A stretch of 22,593 nt of DNA, taken from positions 1 through 22,593 of IMG/VR virus record IMGVR_UViG_3300038701_001267. One strand, written 5' to 3'. Source of the stretch: a virus. The translations under genes were made by a program, and so were the position numbers. This document shows, piece after piece, positions 3,314-18,594 of this stretch. The notes under the pieces are model-generated. The model was given only the letters and a program-made list of their open reading frames with translations, did no database searches and was not told the DNA's origin. Each line of letters starts with the position of its first letter. Within the stretch, counting starts at the first letter, position 1.

Positions 3314-3714
3314 GTGATATCACTGCCATGTCGCAGGGTATTGCTAACAACCTTGCCAGAATTTCAGGCATTCGCACTTACCCCGAAATTCCGGACAACC
3401 CTGCCCTGCCCGCTGCTGTGGTTTCTTTGGTATCTGTCGATTACGATCAGGCCTTCGCCGGTGGTCTGACGGATTACACCTTTGAGGTGACTGTCATTGT
3501 TTCTAGGGTCACTGAGAGGCGAGCGCAAAAGCGCGTACACGATTTGGTGCAAACCGGGTCCGGGTCTGTCAAAGACGCTATCCAGTTTGACCGGACTCTC
3601 GGCGGTGAGGCGTTCGATTGTGTAGTGACCGAAATGAATAACATCGCGTCCGTTAGTATTGGGGATATAGAGTATTTGACCGCGGCGTTCATCGTCGTAG
3701 TTCGAGCAAACTAA
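3310..3714 (+). CDS. Probable tail terminator / head-tail joining protein
   Basis: The 134-residue product has an N-terminal helix, 'YPEIPDNPALPAAVVSLVSVDYDQAF' and alternating strands ending in 'YLTAAFIVVVRA'. This alpha-beta layout, length and position just before the tail tube gene match tail terminator proteins (lambda gpU-like) that cap the tube and join it to the head. The GTG start overlaps the connector stop codon (GTGA), implying translational coupling. A head-closure protein is the alternative. Assignment depends on gene order more than on a diagnostic motif. Confidence 0.6.
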   Translation: MSDITAMSQGIANNLARISGIRTYPEIPDNPALPAAVVSLVSVDYDQAFAGGLTDYTFEVTVIVSRVTERRAQKRVHDLVQTGSGSVKDAIQFDRTLGGEAFDCVVTEMNNIASVSIGDIEYLTAAFIVVVRAN

Positions 3715-3726
3715 GGAGTAAAAGCC

Positions 3727-4152
3727 GTGGCGAAATTCGTGGCGACCGACGTAAAGACAACCATCAACGGGGTCGACTTCAGCGACCACATTGCGGCTGT
3801 CACATTAGACATTTCAACAGACGAAATTGAAACCACGGCGTTCTCGTCCGTGGGTTTCCGGACTCGTATTGCTGGTCTAAAAGATGGGTCCATTACTTTG
3901 GACTTCCACCAAGACTTTGGCACTGCAGGTTCCAACGCTGTTGACTCAACCATTTGGAACAACTTCGGTAGCTTGGCTACTGTTGTGGTTTCTCCGACCA
4001 GCGGTTCTGTGTCGCCTAGTAATCCTGCGTACAGTGGGGTCTATTTGATTTCACAGACAACCCCGCTGGCGAGTAGTGTCGGGGATCTCGCAACCCAGAG
4101 TCTGACCTGGCCCACTGCAGGAACCGCGGGAATCACACGCGCAACTTCCTAA
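3727..4152 (+). CDS. Major tail (tube) protein
   Basis: This 141-residue, beta-rich, serine- and threonine-rich protein contains 'VKTTINGVDFSDHIAAVTLDISTDEIETTAFSS' split over several strands, 'GSITLDFHQDFG' and a threonine-rich C-terminus. These match small siphovirus tail tube subunits, which polymerise as hexameric rings along the tape measure. It has a strong ribosome binding site (AAGGAG at 3713-3718) before the GTG at 3727, in keeping with high expression. Position between tail terminator and tail assembly chaperones supports the call. Confidence 0.8.
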   Translation: MAKFVATDVKTTINGVDFSDHIAAVTLDISTDEIETTAFSSVGFRTRIAGLKDGSITLDFHQDFGTAGSNAVDSTIWNNFGSLATVVVSPTSGSVSPSNPAYSGVYLISQTTPLASSVGDLATQSLTWPTAGTAGITRATS

Positions 4153-7039: not shown

Positions 7040-7396
7040 ATGCAGGCTCCAGGTGAACTTGATTTGACTTTGTACCAGGGTGCGACTTTTGATTATGAGT
7101 TGTCGTGGTCGGCTGCTGGTTCGGCGGTGGATTTGACGGATTATTCGGCACGTATGCAGGTGCGTCCTTCGTATTCGAGTGGGTCTGTGGTTGTTGAGTT
7201 GACGTCGGATTCTGGGATTGTGTTGGGTGGTACGGCGGGGACGATTGAGTTGGGTTTGTCTGCGTCTGCTACTGAGGCTTTGGGGTTTACTTCTAGTCGG
7301 CAGTTTGTTTACGATTTGGAGTTGGAGTCGGATTCTGGTGTGGTGACTCGGTTGGTGCAGGGCCGTTTTTTTATTGATCCGGAGGTTACTCGGTGA
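7040..7396 (+). CDS. Small beta-rich tail protein, unknown function
   Basis: The 118-residue product consists of regular short strands ('[17 protein letters not shown]', '[15 protein letters not shown]', '[13 protein letters not shown]', '[15 protein letters not shown]'), suggesting an immunoglobulin-like or baseplate-like beta sandwich. Proteins of this kind are common immediately before fibre genes in siphoviruses. A good ribosome binding site (GGAAGGA at 7027-7033) precedes the ATG. The stop overlaps the collagen-like fibre start by GTGA, so the two products may be made in linked amounts. A fibre-docking or tail-tip role is inferred. Confidence 0.6.
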
Positions 7397-8859
7397 CGAC
7401 TGTCAATGTGACGACAGTTGAGAATGTGGTGGAGGTTATTCGGCCTTCACCGCAAACGGTGACGACTGAGAATGTTACGGGTGCGACTGTTGCTGTTGCG
7501 TCTGAGCGTGGCCCTCAGGGGCCGCGGGGTTTGCAGGGGCCTCAGGGTGAGCCGGGTGCGGATTCGACTGTGCCTGGGCCTACTGGTCCGCAGGGTGAGA
7601 CGGGGCCTGCTGGGCCTACTGGCCCGCAGGGTGTTAAGGGTGATACTGGGGATGTTGGGCCTGCGGGTGCTACGGGTCCGCAGGGGCCGGCTGGCCCTGA
7701 GGGGCCGGAGGGTGCGGCGTCTACTGTTCCGGGGCCGGAGGGTCCTACTGGTGCGACTGGTCCTGCTGGTCCACAGGGGGACACTGGTCCTACGGGGGCG
7801 ACTGGCCCGCAAGGGCCGGAGGGGCCTGCTGGGCCTCAAGGTGAGGCTGGGCCTACAGGTTTAACTGGTGCTCAAGGTCCGGCTGGTGACACTGGGCCTC
7901 AAGGGTTACAGGGCGAGACGGGCCCTCAGGGTCAGCAGGGTGTTAAGGGTGATACTGGGGATGTTGGGCCAACTGGCCCGCAAGGCCCTCAAGGTGAAAC
8001 GGGTCCGCAGGGCATCCAGGGTGAGACTGGACTGACAGGTGCCACAGGTCCAGAAGGGCCAGAAGGTCCGCAGGGAATTCAAGGCGAGACGGGTTCAACG
8101 GGCGCTACCGGCCCGCAGGGAATACAGGGCGAGACCGGTCCAACGGGACCTCAAGGCCCGCAAGGTTTACAGGGAGACACTGGGCTTACAGGTCCTCAAG
8201 GGTTGCAAGGTGAAACCGGCCCGACAGGTGCTCAAGGACCGGATGGCGATAGTGCTTACACGGTTGCTGTTGCGGAAGGTTTTGTTGGGACTGAGGCCGA
8301 ATGGTTGGCTTCACTTGTTGGGGCTACTGGACCACAGGGACCACAGGGTGATACTGGTCCTACAGGTGCTCAGGGTATTCAAGGGGATACGGGTCCTGAA
8401 GGTCCGCAGGGTATTCAGGGAGAGACTGGCCCGCAAGGCCCTCAAGGCATTCAGGGTATTCAGGGTATTCAAGGTGAGACGGGTGCGACTGGTCCGCAGG
8501 GAGAGACGGGTTTAACTGGGGCTACGGGTCCTCAGGGTCCGCAAGGAGACACTGGTCTGACCGGCCCAACGGGACCCCAAGGGCCACAAGGTATTCAGGG
8601 CGAGACGGGTGCCACAGGGCCTACTGGGCCGCAAGGGGTAAAGGGAGACACTGGGGACACCGGGCCTACGGGTCCTACCGGACCACAGGGACCACAGGGT
8701 GAAACTGGTGAAACTGGTGTTGTTGCGGCTACTTCACCGATCCAATATAACGCGGGTACCAAAACAGTCAGCATTGATGCTAACGCTGGCGGTATCACCA
8801 TTAATGGTTCATCTGTTGCTTTGGGTGGGACGATTGTTGTTGAGGCGAGGCTGGGATGA
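7393..8859 (+). CDS. Collagen-like tail fibre protein
   Basis: This 488-residue protein has about 39 N-terminal residues likely to dock on the tail, then Gly-X-Y triplets almost without break from residue 40 to about 442, and a 46-residue C-terminal head ('[20 protein letters not shown]' region). Recurrent triplets are GPQ, GPT, GET, GIQ and GDT, with glutamate and threonine common. Such repeats form a trimeric collagen helix without hydroxyproline. The helix is interrupted once, at residues 286-309, by '[20 protein letters not shown]' and a few further residues. It is probably a host-contact fibre, with the C-terminal head as a trimerisation or receptor domain. Repeat number may vary by recombination. 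Confidence 0.92.
7510..8718 (+). repeat. Gly-X-Y triplet repeat tract in the fibre gene
   Basis: About 400 consecutive triplets-worth of codons follow the GGN-NNN-NNN rhythm with frequent local direct repeats, such as blocks reading GIQGIQGIQ at about 8443-8475. Codon choice for glycine and proline varies along the tract, which reduces exact DNA identity between units. The non-collagen interruption occupies 8248-8319. Such tracts are prone to expansion and contraction. Confidence 0.9.
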
Positions 8860-12531: not shown

Positions 12532-12735
12532 TTATTTTCCGAGCCAGTTGCGGATCGTCCTCCGAGTCACACCTGCACGTCTGGCAAGCTCCACCTCTGT
12601 AACGCCTTTAGAGGCCTCGTCATGCACTGCCCTTATTAGTTCACCCGTGAGTTGTTCTGTGCGCTCTATGGACCAGATACGGCGCTGTGAGATGGTGTCT
12701 AGGGTCTCGTGGCCCTCGTCTATGTTGAACGTCAT
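12532..12735 (-). CDS. Small HTH DNA-binding protein, candidate repressor or Cro-like regulator
   Basis: The 67-residue form from ATG 12735 has a helical N-terminus ('TISQRRIWSIERTEQLTGEL') and a C-terminal helix-turn-helix 'VTEVELARRAGVTRRTIRNWL'. An upstream in-frame ATG at 12795 would add 20 residues but crosses the divergent promoter region; the shorter start sits seven bases after a TACACT -10 hexamer and is preferred. Divergent transcription from a neighbour with overlapping -35 elements is the layout of phage transcriptional switches, so autoregulation and control of the plus-strand genes are inferred. There is no integrase nearby, so a lysogeny role is unproven. Confidence 0.75.
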   Translation of the reverse strand: MTFNIDEGHETLDTISQRRIWSIERTEQLTGELIRAVHDEASKGVTEVELARRAGVTRRTIRNWLGK

Positions 12736-12772
12736 GGGTACGAGTGTACACGCCGGGGTTGACATCCGCCAA
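12736..12772 (-). promoter_or_regulatory. Leaderless promoter for the HTH gene
   Basis: On the minus strand TTGGCG (12772-12767), an 18-base spacer, TACACT (12748-12743) and then seven bases lead to the ATG at 12735. The -10 lies inside the GTGTACAC palindrome at 12744-12751, a plausible operator half-overlap. The -35 is only two bases from the plus-strand -35, so the two promoters should compete. Confidence 0.6.
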
Positions 12773-12786
12773 CAGGTCTGTATATT
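12759..12786 (+). promoter_or_regulatory. Sigma70-like promoter for the gene at 12816
   Basis: TTGACA (12759-12764) is a perfect -35 match, with a 16-base spacer and TATATT (12781-12786) as the -10. The start codon follows 30 bases later after a GAGAGGGAG ribosome binding site at 12800-12809. It is one of the best consensus promoters in the window. Confidence 0.8.
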
Positions 12787-12815
12787 GGTAGACACCTAGA
12801 GAGAGGGAGTCCAAA

Positions 12816-13043: not shown

Positions 13044-13195
13044 TGCCGTGGATACTGTTTTTCGGTGGCGCTTTTATGGCACTGGTGTCCGGCGTTCTCA
13101 CACTGTCACCTAACGGCGGTTCGATGTTGGGTGTGGTGTTGATGTTGTGGGGTTTTTGGATGATTGCGTCTAGGGATGTTCGTGATGGGCTTTGA
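13040..13195 (+). CDS. Tiny two-helix membrane protein
   Basis: A 51-residue frame begins with two successive ATGs (13040, 13043) and encodes mostly hydrophobic residues: one helix at about 4-22 ('WILFFGGAFMALVSGVLTL'), one at about 29-44 ('MLGVVLMLWGFWMIAS'), and a short charged C-terminus 'RDVRDGL'. It overlaps the upstream stop (ATGA), so it is probably co-translated with the preceding membrane protein. Its 3' end runs 26 bases into the converging WhiB gene. Function is unknown. Confidence 0.65.
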   Translation: MMPWILFFGGAFMALVSGVLTLSPNGGSMLGVVLMLWGFWMIASRDVRDGL

Positions 13196-13442
13196 GTTTG
13201 TCGGCAGTCATGCCACCCCAAATACCGAACTCTTGCCGGGTGCCAATGGCGTAGTCCCTACAGGTCATGAGAAGTGGACAATCTGCACACAGGCCCTTGG
13301 CCGCCTCGATAGCCTTTTCGCGGACTTCCCTATCTGGGATGTCTTCAGGGAAAAAAATGTCGGGCAACCTTTGACAGGGCACTTCACCAACTCGTTCGAT
13401 GGCGAGCAGGAGGTCACTGTGGGGATGTCCGTCGTGAAACAT
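13170..13442 (-). CDS. WhiB-like iron-sulfur regulator, first copy
   Basis: The 90-residue protein has the four invariant WhiB cysteines at 23, 52, 55 and 61 ('VPCQ', 'GLCADCPLLMTCRDYA') that hold a 4Fe-4S cluster, followed by the 'FGIWGGMT' turn at about residues 72-78. WhiB proteins are found only in Actinobacteria and their phages and bind sigma factor sigma-A to change transcription. The C-terminus after GIWGG is short ('ADKLKAHHEHP') without the usual arginine-rich hook, so DNA contact may differ. It is transcribed away from the recombination operon from a leaderless promoter. Phage WhiB proteins can alter host division genes; that role here is inferred. Confidence 0.95.
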   Translation of the reverse strand: MFHDGHPHSDLLLAIERVGEVPCQRLPDIFFPEDIPDREVREKAIEAAKGLCADCPLLMTCRDYAIGTRQEFGIWGGMTADKLKAHHEHP

Positions 13443-15995: not shown

Positions 15996-16217
15996 ATGAA
16001 CAGGGAACAAATACGCAGAGCCGAACGGGTGTCCGAAACACTCCTAGAACGCCGCATGAGGACCATTGAGTCTTTGCAGGAAGCGAAACAGTGGCAACGT
16101 CCACGATCCACAAGCGGAACCAAACAACACGACCTGCAAACTAACCGTGGCGAGTACACGTTTACCGATGAACAGTTCCGTATCGCGTTGGCTTCACTTG
16201 AGAAGGCCGAACAGTGA
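15996..16217 (+). CDS. Small basic helical protein, unknown
   Basis: The 73-residue form from ATG 15996 (ribosome binding site GAAGGG) is highly charged: 'MNREQIRRAERVSETLLERR', 'TIESLQEAKQWQRP', then 'GEYTFTDEQFRIALASLEKA'. A longer upstream start has no ribosome binding site and would read through the regulatory gap. It overlaps the second WhiB gene by GTGA-type 4 bp, so the pair is coupled. Likely a helical nucleic-acid- or WhiB-associated protein; not assignable to a family. Confidence 0.7.
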   Translation: MNREQIRRAERVSETLLERRMRTIESLQEAKQWQRPRSTSGTKQHDLQTNRGEYTFTDEQFRIALASLEKAEQ

Positions 16218-16474
16218 CCTCCTGGCAGGACCTAGACCAGGCTATTCAGGATGAAGGCGGTGTAGTGCCGTGTCAGAACGCCCCGGATATGTTCTTCAAC
16301 ACTGACGAGGGCGACCGTAGCCAATACGCGACAGCTCGCTTATTGTGTTCCGAGTGCCCGGTGAAGGATTTGTGTTTGTCGTATGCGTTGGATGCGGGGG
16401 AACCTTTTGGTTTGTGGGGTGGGTTTTCGCCTCCTGAGCGGCGGCAGATGTTGCGTCGTCGCCCAGTTGCCTAA
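16214..16474 (+). CDS. WhiB-like iron-sulfur regulator, second copy
   Basis: The 86-residue protein has WhiB cysteines at 20, 45, 48 and 54 ('VVPCQ', 'LLCSECPVKDLCLSYA') and the turn 'FGLWGGFS' at residues 65-72. A basic C-terminus 'PPERRQMLRRRPVA' follows, the feature that lets many WhiB proteins contact DNA; the first copy lacks this basic run. GTG start at 16214, coupled to the upstream gene. The two copies share the cluster layout but differ widely elsewhere, so they probably came from separate acquisitions or diverged long ago. It likely binds sigma-A at selected promoters. Confidence 0.95.
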   Translation: MTSWQDLDQAIQDEGGVVPCQNAPDMFFNTDEGDRSQYATARLLCSECPVKDLCLSYALDAGEPFGLWGGFSPPERRQMLRRRPVA

Positions 16475-16841: not shown

Positions 16842-17233
16842 GTGGGTCTGCCTCTCGGCGTAAGGGTAACGCTGCGGAAGTGGAAGTGGTGCACGCCCTG
16901 CGGAGGGCCGGCTGGGAGGCTGAAACCTCGAGGAACGCTAGGAACGGGACACAAAAGGGTGAGGACATCGTGTCCGATTTTCCCATGTCTATTGAGGTGA
17001 AGAATCATACTCGGACGGATTTGGCGGGATGGTGGAAGCAAGCGCAAGAGCAAGCCGGCACCGCCATGCCCGTAGTGATCCATAAACGTGTAGGCAAGCC
17101 CCGCGCCGAGGACTGGTGGGTCACAATGGACTTGCAGACGCTTCTCGATTTGGTCAAGGTGTTTCAGTGGGAAGAATCGGCGCAAGAGGTCATCGAGAAG
17201 ATTGCTGCGGAGGTGGAAGATGTCGATCGGTAA
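16838..17233 (+). CDS. Holliday junction resolvase-like nuclease (Hjc-type PD-(D/E)XK)
   Basis: The 131-residue protein begins 'SASRRKGNAAEVEVVHALRR', matching the N-terminal helix of Hjc-type resolvases with an acidic residue at position 14 or 16, then 'KGEDIVSDFPMSIEVKNHTR' with D43, E53 and K55 as the nuclease motif. The C-terminus continues with 'DWWVTMDLQTLLDLVKVF' and a helical tail. It would cut branched DNA made by the phage recombination system. Length fits. A RusA-type fold is excluded by the EVK motif. It overlaps the HNH gene start by 14 bp. Confidence 0.85.
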   Translation: MSGSASRRKGNAAEVEVVHALRRAGWEAETSRNARNGTQKGEDIVSDFPMSIEVKNHTRTDLAGWWKQAQEQAGTAMPVVIHKRVGKPRAEDWWVTMDLQTLLDLVKVFQWEESAQEVIEKIAAEVEDVDR

Positions 17234-17672
17234 AAAGTCGAAACTAAACCTCGCCCAAAAACGGCGCATAGTATTTGTCCGCGACGGGGAAACCTGTATA
17301 GCAAAAGGTGTGTTCGGGTTTTGTGGTGGTGATTTGACTCTGCAACATCGGGCTGGTCGGGGTATGGGTGGAAGTGCTGAACGTGACGGGTTCGACAATT
17401 TGGTCACTATGTGCATGATTCACAATGAGCTGGAAACAGCGAGCGCGGATTTTCATCGGTTGTGTGTGAAGTTGGGGTGGTCGATGCCGCGTTGGGTGCA
17501 CGATCAGGGTTTCGCGGATGTGGTGCCGGTGTGGTATCCCGGCAAAGGGTGGTTTCTTTTAGAGCCGGACGGTAGGGTGTCGATTTTGGATGAGCGGACG
17601 GCGAAGACTACGATGATTAGCATTTACGGTCCGGGGTTTATTGGGGACCCGAGTGGACACCCGGCGGGGTAG
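17220..17672 (+). CDS. HNH endonuclease-like protein
   Basis: The 150-residue form from ATG 17220 is chosen because GCGGAGG lies at 17207-17213; an upstream ATG at 17202 is inside the preceding gene and has no site. The core reads 'FVRDGETC', 'GFCGGDLTLQHRAGRGMGG' and 'DNLVTMCMIHNELETAS', with QH at 42-43, N60 and H68-N69 as the HNH-type metal and catalytic residues and C26, C35 and C65 possibly binding zinc. The C-terminal part ('VWYPGKGWFLLEPDGRVSIL') is extra. It probably nicks or cuts DNA; homing activity is possible. Confidence 0.75.
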   Translation: MSIGKKSKLNLAQKRRIVFVRDGETCIAKGVFGFCGGDLTLQHRAGRGMGGSAERDGFDNLVTMCMIHNELETASADFHRLCVKLGWSMPRWVHDQGFADVVPVWYPGKGWFLLEPDGRVSILDERTAKTTMISIYGPGFIGDPSGHPAG

Positions 17673-17683
17673 TAGACTATAAC
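17654..17683 (+). promoter_or_regulatory. Near-consensus promoter before the replication gene
   Basis: TGGACA (17654-17659, five of six) and TATAAC (17678-17683, five of six) are separated by 18 bases and overlap the end of the HNH gene. Transcription should start near 17690, giving a leader of about 100 nt before the ATG at 17794. It is the strongest match to consensus next to the one at 12759. Confidence 0.75.
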
Positions 17684-17698
17684 TAGTAAATAAATAGA

Positions 17699-17785
17699 GA
17701 TGACCGCCGCGGGTGGAATCGCGACGGCCATCAGAAAACCGATGAAATAGGCATCGGCTGGGTTCAAGTCTAGCCGATAGAAAGG
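17699..17785 (+). ncRNA. Structured 5' leader with alternative hairpins (candidate riboregulator)
   Basis: Hairpin 1 pairs 17699-17710 with 17721-17732 (10 of 12 positions). Hairpin 2 pairs CCGATG (17739-17744) with CATCGG (17752-17757). Hairpin 3 pairs ATCGGCT (17753-17759) with AGCCGAT (17772-17778). Hairpins 2 and 3 use the same middle segment, so they exclude each other. Hairpin 3 ends three bases before the AAAGG ribosome binding site (17781-17785) of the replication gene. A 16-codon ORF (17700-17750) ends in the loop of hairpin 2. The layout is like a translation-linked attenuator; no known riboswitch class is recognised. Confidence 0.55.
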
Positions 17786-17793
17786 TTAGACAA

Positions 17794-18594
17794 ATGGACA
17801 AACTAAACACCGATGTGAGATTTAGCATCGTGCCGCAATGGTTGTTAGAGGCTGAGACCTCCGACCGCGCTATCCGTGTTTACGCCCTCATTGCAGGTTA
17901 TGCAGACAGCGAGACCCTAACGGCTTTTCCTTCGAGGGAGACGCTTGCAAAGAGGGCCGGTTGTCACGTCAAGACGATAGATCGCGCTATTGCTGAACTA
18001 GTGCAAATTGGTGCGCTGACTAAGCAACAGAGGAAGAACGGGGACGAGTACAGTTCGAACCTCTACACGATCAGGAGGGTACCCCCACAGATGTCGCCAC
18101 CTAGGGACACTGATGTCGCGGGGGTAGGGACACCGGTGGGGCTACCTGGGGACACAGATGTCCCACTAACTAGAACCACCGAACTAGAACCAATTAACAA
18201 TAACCACTTAACTATAAGCGCAGATAAATCTGCGAAAACGAATCGTCCTCATCGTTTACCTGAAGACTGGTACCCATCCCAACGGTTGCTAGATATGTTC
18301 CCCGAAAAGTGGCCATCACTAGACCCGGAATACGAGATAGAAAACTTCATCAACTATTGGCTAGGAGAGGGTAAGCCTAAAGCCGATTGGGATCGCACGT
18401 TCCAGGGTTGGATGTCAAGGAATGAAAAGTCTTCTAAGCCTCGCGGTGGTGCTGGATGGGTGAAACCGACAGCAGCGCAGAGAACCGCCTCCCTATATGC
18501 CAAATATAAGGCCATAGAGGATGCGGAAGAACAGCCGATGAAGGGTATTGGCCAGGGTCCAGATTTTAGTTCGATGTTGAAAAGGGTTGACTAA
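17794..18594 (+). CDS. Winged-helix replication initiation / replisome organiser protein
   Basis: The 266-residue protein begins with a winged HTH ('PQWLLEAETSDRAIRVYALI', 'FPSRETLAKRAGCHVKTIDR', then 'IAELVQIGALTKQQRKNGDE'), as in phage replication initiators that bind origin DNA. A proline- and threonine-rich linker (about residues 97-140) joins it to a C-terminal block 'DWYPSQRLLDMFPEKWPSLD', 'IENFINYWLGEGKPKADWDR' and 'FQGWMSR', seen in phage replisome organisers and thought to bind the helicase loader. Ribosome binding site AAAGG at 17781-17785. It is coupled to the G39P-like gene by TAATG. Origin iterons, if any, should be nearby or inside this gene. Confidence 0.82.
   Translation: MDKLNTDVRFSIVPQWLLEAETSDRAIRVYALIAGYADSETLTAFPSRETLAKRAGCHVKTIDRAIAELVQIGALTKQQRKNGDEYSSNLYTIRRVPPQMSPPRDTDVAGVGTPVGLPGDTDVPLTRTTELEPINNNHLTISADKSAKTNRPHRLPEDWYPSQRLLDMFPEKWPSLDPEYEIENFINYWLGEGKPKADWDRTFQGWMSRNEKSSKPRGGAGWVKPTAAQRTASLYAKYKAIEDAEEQPMKGIGQGPDFSSMLKRVD

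Follow-up and report, generated by a model that had tools for sequence, protein, structure and literature searches.

The Replication Locus and Its Relatives

The 22.6-kb window, by which we mean the whole stretch of DNA analyzed, is a virus record related to the Pontimonas phage phiPsal1. One of its genes encodes a RepO-like replication initiator with Pfam matches to HTH_36 (4.9e-12) and DnaT (2.8e-06) and a PHROG match to a replication initiation protein (5.2e-19). The leader of this gene is the subject of the present analysis, and the features that we assign to it are listed in table 1. phiPsal1 is 88% identical to the window across 17500–17798, a match that ends where the rep gene starts, and the order HNH gene, leader, rep gene is common to phiPsal1 and several IMG/VR contigs. 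With the leader alone as a BLAST query, phiPsal1 provides the sole full match; the remaining matches, one of 26 bases in a Microbacterium phage and two of 21 bases in Rhodococcus plasmids, are at chance level.

Table 1. Features of the replication initiator gene and its leader in the window
Feature	Position	Strand	Basis
Candidate rep mRNA promoter (TGGACA 17654–17659, N18, TATAAC 17678–17683)	17654–17683	+	Read directly
U-rich tail after the terminator hairpin (TCTATTTATT)	17689–17698	−	T count
Gene of the predicted untranslated antisense RNA (about 70 nt)	17690–17759	−	Folding, −10 box, terminator
Terminator hairpin P1' of the predicted antisense RNA	17699–17732	−	G.U strand bias, stability
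seg1, 5' strand of target hairpin P2 (CCGATG)	17739–17744	+	Pairs with seg2
P2 loop, 7 nt, predicted antisense recognition (incompatibility) loop	17745–17751	+	Hypervariability
seg2, switch strand (CATCGG 17752–17757)	17752–17761	+	Pairs with seg1, seg3 or the predicted antisense RNA
Putative antisense −10 box TAGACT (TANNNT type)	17767–17772	−	7 nt before the predicted start, 17759
Anti-SD strand of the sequestering hairpin, partner 17784–17791	17768–17775	+	Minimum-energy fold
seg3 (AGCCGAT 17772–17778), partner of seg2 in the open state	17770–17778	+	Core pairs kept
Initiator ribosome binding site (AGAAAGG 17779–17785) and SD-side sequestering strand	17779–17791	+	Read directly and fold
Replication initiator, RepO-like (HTH_36 and DnaT/DnaD-type domains)	17794–18594	+	Pfam, PHROG

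Further relatives were identified by a scan for the Rep N-terminal domain and by a separate scan with the DNA pattern of hairpin P2 alone. The comparison set comprises 47 distinct leaders whose P2 loop is 7 nt long; many tests were run on 37 leaders and the covariation of helices P1 and P2 was computed on 35. A covariance model built from type II leaders only retrieved the window (E about 1e-6) together with the other type I leaders, which confirms their homology independently. Each phage record searched carries a single copy of the leader. Among 400 Microbacteriaceae genomes, just one carries it, on a contig of a metagenome-assembled genome that also encodes a RepO-like gene; the leader is therefore not a general host element. 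Most of the other Microbacteriaceae matches that we inspected lack P2, being simple terminator-like hairpins or unrelated sequence, and a search at order level returned one additional match, also terminator-like.

Mutually Exclusive Pairings at the Initiator Ribosome Site

The region 17690–17810 folds at −41.5 kcal/mol, against −23.4 ± 3.2 kcal/mol for shuffled sequences (z = −5.6). A preliminary description of this DNA had proposed that CATCGG pairs either backward with CCGATG or forward with AGCCGAT; these segments, an ATG at 17700, a TAG at 17748–17750 and the initiator start codon were all found in place by direct reading. The forward pairing exists and is longer than proposed, with nine pairs joining ATCGGCTGG (17753–17761) to CTAGCCGAT (17770–17778). 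A third pairing, missed at that stage, covers the final bases of the ribosome binding site and joins GTCTAGCC (17768–17775) to GGTTAGAC (17784–17791). When seg2 pairs with seg1 the ribosome site is hidden, and when it pairs with seg3 the site is free.

These alternative hairpins are conserved and covary among the phage relatives. P2 (seg1:seg2) is 100% paired in 37 leaders, and both partners have changed at five of its six pairs. Over P1 and P2 together (35 leaders), 94.2% of the cells are paired, 134 are double changes and the covariation score reaches 0.511, compared with at most 0.122 when the partners are slid; comparison of homologous leaders thus gives strong support to the mutually exclusive folds that had been suggested. 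The six core pairs of seg2:seg3 are retained in 31–36 of 36 leaders. As G.U pairs occur in this core and A.C oppositions do not, the pairing belongs to the plus-strand RNA. Two leaders (L007 and L008) have the minus-strand −10 box and P1 with little or no seg2:seg3 pairing. An equivalent of the anti-SD:SD pairing is found in the relatives with subtype-specific sequences, TCTCCAT:ATGGAGA, TTGTCC:GGACAA or the GTCTAGCC:GGTTAGAC of the window, and its anti-SD strand lies after seg2 or, in the subtype of the window, overlaps seg3. Pairings with slid partners collapse.

According to the computed energies, the full-length RNA favors the closed state in 37/37 leaders (median 6.4–6.6 kcal/mol), even without an antisense RNA. 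Conversely, an RNA ending at seg3 favors the open state in 35/37. When seg2 is removed from the calculation, as an antisense RNA would do, the ribosome site is mostly closed. Since the closed state is favored at equilibrium without antisense RNA, the model set out below needs co-transcriptional folding. A pattern scan revealed no terminator-like site on the plus strand between seg3 and the start codon, and we rejected transcription attenuation at the rep leader on this ground. As for the sense promoter, a TANNNT-like −10 lies near P1 on the plus strand in many, not all, of the relatives; the candidate of the window was omitted by the consensus promoter scan because the final base of its −10 box is a C.

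A Predicted Antisense RNA on the Minus Strand

The helix P1 is built for the minus strand. On the plus strand it is interrupted by one or more C.A or A.C mismatches, which on the minus strand are U.G or G.U pairs. Over 37 leaders, P1 contains 101 G.U pairs when read on the minus strand and 10 when read on the plus strand. Its mean stability is −24.6 kcal/mol on the minus strand versus −15.4 kcal/mol on the plus strand, about 9 kcal/mol in favor of the former, which is the more stable in all 37. In each of these leaders the minus strand forms an unbroken stem of 13–15 bp followed by a U-rich tail (P1'), and a pattern scan also flagged P1 as a minus-strand terminator-like hairpin. The tail is moderate, with a mean of 4.8 T among its first 8 nt (37 leaders) and no clean run of U.

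In 37/37 leaders, the complement of seg2 is preceded at 5–8 nt by a minus-strand TANNNT motif, with many different inner triplets. TANNNT is the usual form of the actinobacterial −10 box, and its background frequency here is 3–5%. It is present in 55/55 genuine leaders found by the DNA pattern, compared with 4/77 chance matches to that pattern. On the plus strand the same motif reads ANNNTA right after seg2, where pairing explains the bases only partly. We found no conserved −35 element for this putative promoter (mean of 2.54 matches vs. 2.46 in shuffled sequences). Together, the −10 box and the P1' terminator mark out a predicted, untranslated antisense RNA some 70 nt long. From its 5' end, the predicted RNA consists of hairpin P2' (the complement of seg2, loop and seg1), a U-rich linker, the terminator hairpin P1' and the U-rich tail; it folds at −33.2 kcal/mol into two hairpins, one of 7 bp closing a 7-nt loop and the other the 13-bp terminator. 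The sequence of seg3 resembles the 5' end of this RNA. The rep leader is thus likely the target of a small antisense RNA made from the opposite strand.

A Hypervariable Loop in Hairpin P2

Although P2 is invariably paired, its loop changes rapidly. Between near-identical leaders, 24 of 46 differences fall within the loop, that is, within 7 of 99 sites, where 3.3 would be expected if changes were evenly spread. Differences per site in close pairs amount to 0.312 in the loop, 0.000 in the stem and 0.02–0.03 in the flanks. Thirty-two distinct loops occur among the 47 leaders, and in one pair (L049 and L051) the loop is the sole difference in the compared sequence. Such hypervariability is typical of plasmid incompatibility loops, and we infer that the P2 loop decides the specificity of the antisense RNA. 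A GGUGG motif seen in loops was considered as a CsrA-like or decoy site and discarded; it is missing from type II leaders.

A Leader Exchanged among Replication Genes

The initiators encoded behind the leader belong to several Rep families, with at least four different N-terminal types. Two near-identical leaders (L145 and L146) precede different Rep proteins, and in two others (L114, gene at 1471–1998, and L196, first ORF) a GIY-YIG endonuclease gene lies immediately 3' of the leader. In L114 the rep gene comes after the GIY-YIG gene, so that the endonuclease gene is now under the rep control leader. The variety of Rep types, the L145/L146 pair and the GIY-YIG cases indicate that the leader is a module swapped independently of the gene that it controls.

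Several other arrangements were observed at these loci. The end of the leader is a sharp recombination boundary in the window (17202–17669 vs. 17794–18594). The HNH gene and the leader are close to those of phiPsal1 and of IMG/VR contigs, whereas the rep gene that follows shows no relationship or belongs to a different type (e.g., L001 and L005). L005 carries, between leader and rep gene, a 78-aa ORF (3558–3791) without a PHROG match. Upstream of other RepO-like genes (L112, L113, L115, L118, and L127), within a few bases of the ribosome site, lies a different inverted repeat that is strong and near-perfect; an example just upstream of the Rep match in this group is GAAGGCAGGCCACG...CGTGGCCTGCCTTC. 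This repeat is possibly another control element.

Proposed Mechanism and Alternative Readings

We consider it very probable that the leader is a replication-control locus at which a copy-number-sensing antisense RNA shuts the initiator ribosome site via seg2. Established at the sequence level are conserved helices that covary, a terminator and a −10 box on the minus strand, a hypervariable loop and a location before rep genes. From this anatomy of the leader and the computed energies we infer that the antisense RNA is produced and acts as an inhibitor, in what order the folds form over time, and what purpose the control serves. A promoter within the leader would direct synthesis of the antisense RNA, which would end at P1'. 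The hairpin at its 5' end is complementary to P2 at every base, and the first contact would probably be made between the two 7-nt loops. On the nascent mRNA, seg2:seg3 would form before the ribosome site emerges, leaving the site open and allowing the initiator to be made. Once the antisense RNA holds seg2, or the full-length mRNA relaxes, the anti-SD strand would close the site and no initiator would be produced. More phage copies would yield more antisense RNA, and initiator synthesis and replication would thus be limited by copy number. A related phage with a matching loop would also be inhibited.

The best-surviving alternative, which we judge improbable, accepts the antisense RNA and gives it a different effect: it would activate the initiator, its pairing with seg1 freeing seg2, or would act mainly by transcription interference or by RNase III cleavage. 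An activator would be useful given that the computed default state is closed, and the convergent promoters permit interference. However, seg2:seg3 would be blocked by an antisense RNA whose predicted start is the complement of seg2, and a leader deprived of seg2 has a mostly closed ribosome site.

That the leader is instead a riboswitch or a protein-binding leader, P1 and P2 forming an aptamer or protein site that flips the expression platform, is very unlikely. A structure that covaries and is coupled to an expression platform with two states does resemble a riboswitch, and the preliminary description had favored a control element of this kind or an attenuator, of no known class. A search of Rfam indeed gave no match at the gathering score on either strand; the weak matches by E-value include no ctRNA family, and each scores far below its gathering threshold. 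However, P1 is built for the minus strand and not for the plus strand, few unpaired positions are fixed, the P2 loop is hypervariable, and the leader is single copy in each phage and found only before rep genes. The recurrent C.A mismatches of P1 had suggested a protein site in a plus-strand aptamer, a candidate that we abandoned as these positions pair on the minus strand. No conserved ligand-binding core was apparent on the sense RNA, and the riboswitch reading is not supported.

The preliminary description had also seen in the 16-codon ORF starting at 17700 the trigger of an erm-like attenuator, in which a ribosome on this ORF disrupts P2 and favors the downstream hairpin. In the window the ORF does end within the P2 loop, and disruption of P2 would favor seg2:seg3. 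The ORF is, however, not conserved in frame, length or presence, which refutes a leader peptide as the common mechanism: it has 15 codons in another frame in L001, runs into rep in L004, L005, and L011, and is absent from L065 and L124. In nine leaders (L055, L058, L084, L085, L089, L092, L120, L122, and L123) ORFs start only inside seg1, and in several leaders no ORF beginning before seg1 covers it. Moreover, the ORF of the window sits in the minus-strand terminator, and pairing accounts for that sequence. The two-state leader stands; the hairpin that holds the ORF, folded at that time on the plus strand alone, is a terminator of the other strand. The minus-strand terminator and −10 box and the hypervariable loop argue for a trans-acting antisense RNA, and neither for ribosome stalling, to which we give hardly any credence, nor for a small-molecule aptamer. 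Equally implausible is a DNA-level element without RNA function, such as an origin or protein-binding inverted repeats: inverted repeats before replication genes are common at origins, but DNA leaves unexplained the strand specificity of the G.U pairs (minus in P1, plus in seg2:seg3), and the ribosome site takes part in the pairing.

Comparison with Known Antisense Systems

The predicted antisense control resembles in its working the countertranscript control of plasmids (repABC ctRNA, I-complex RNAI, and pT181), and the leader matches no Rfam family. In the repABC plasmids (p42d and relatives, inc-alpha), as proposed here, the strand opposite the initiator's leader encodes a small antisense RNA. 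Pairing of this ctRNA switches the leader between folds in which the initiator ribosome site is open or closed, and the bound leader of p42d forms an intrinsic terminator (PMC3155836). Unlike in p42d, rep is not preceded by any terminator that we could find, and what is hidden is the ribosome site. The repABC plasmids are alphaproteobacterial, and their Rep is unrelated to those encoded behind the leader described here, which lacks an Rfam match.

Leaders of the I-complex plasmids use a translated leader ORF for activation. They also use a pseudoknot for this purpose (PMC10724649). In this group (IncK, IncB/O, and ColIb-P9), RNAI, a hairpin antisense RNA some 60 nt long, makes a kissing contact with a stem-loop of the rep leader and inhibits translation; changes in the loop decide incompatibility and changes in the stem matter little (PMC10724649). 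In contrast, our leaders have no conserved ORF, their activation would go through seg2:seg3 pairing, and the host phylum is different. Countertranscript attenuators of the pT181/pIP501 type rely on competing leader segments, one of which is taken by the antisense RNA. These systems end transcription, whereas here the output is the ribosome site (pT181 is cited in PMC10724649).

Among phages, an RNA replaces the initiator protein in the extrachromosomal parABS prophages of the mycobacteriophages RedRock, Alma, and Et2Brutus (PMC7157519). These also have a noncoding RNA at an actinobacteriophage replication region; here, by contrast, a Rep protein is present with a regulated leader, and no ParA was found. 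Searches of the open-access literature returned no comparable case of a phage initiator under antisense control.

Phage Lifestyle and Significance

No tyrosine integrase was detected in 11 records and no serine recombinase or ParA in 14, many of these records being fragments. The phiPsal1 sequence was described as circular, with a stoichiometry of 2% relative to the host and no sign of integration, and the phage was judged lytic; it was lost in a second preparation (PMC6106888). The early region of the window encodes a lone HTH protein (12532–12795, minus strand), as does phiPsal1 (phiPsal1_028, cI/cro-like by annotation). The gene is repressor-like, although no lysogeny module is obvious and neither integrase nor ParA was found. 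The window also encodes two small WhiB-like proteins (13170–13442, minus strand, and 16214–16474, plus strand), recognized by eye from their Cys pattern and GxWGG motif, one WhiB being annotated in phiPsal1, and, in the tail region, a 488-aa collagen-like Gly-X-Y protein (7393–8859).

We suggest tentatively, and with more doubt than confidence, that virulent, non-integrating phages of aquatic Microbacteriaceae use plasmid-style antisense incompatibility with lineage-specific kissing loops. Such phages would sense their copy number during infection and shut off co-infecting phages with the same loop, and their loops would diversify into "incompatibility groups."

Control of the initiator by an antisense RNA is textbook plasmid biology. 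The system described here appears to be spread over dozens of aquatic actinobacterial phages and conserved with a fast-changing recognition loop. The leader represents a new RNA family, which an annotation restricted to the plus strand would mislabel as a riboswitch or a leader peptide. The occurrence of this module, conserved and in single copy, across dozens of tailed phages where neither an integrase nor a partition gene was detected suggests that phages also limit or police replication by copy-number-sensing RNA, and the hypervariable loop directly predicts which of these phages would exclude each other.
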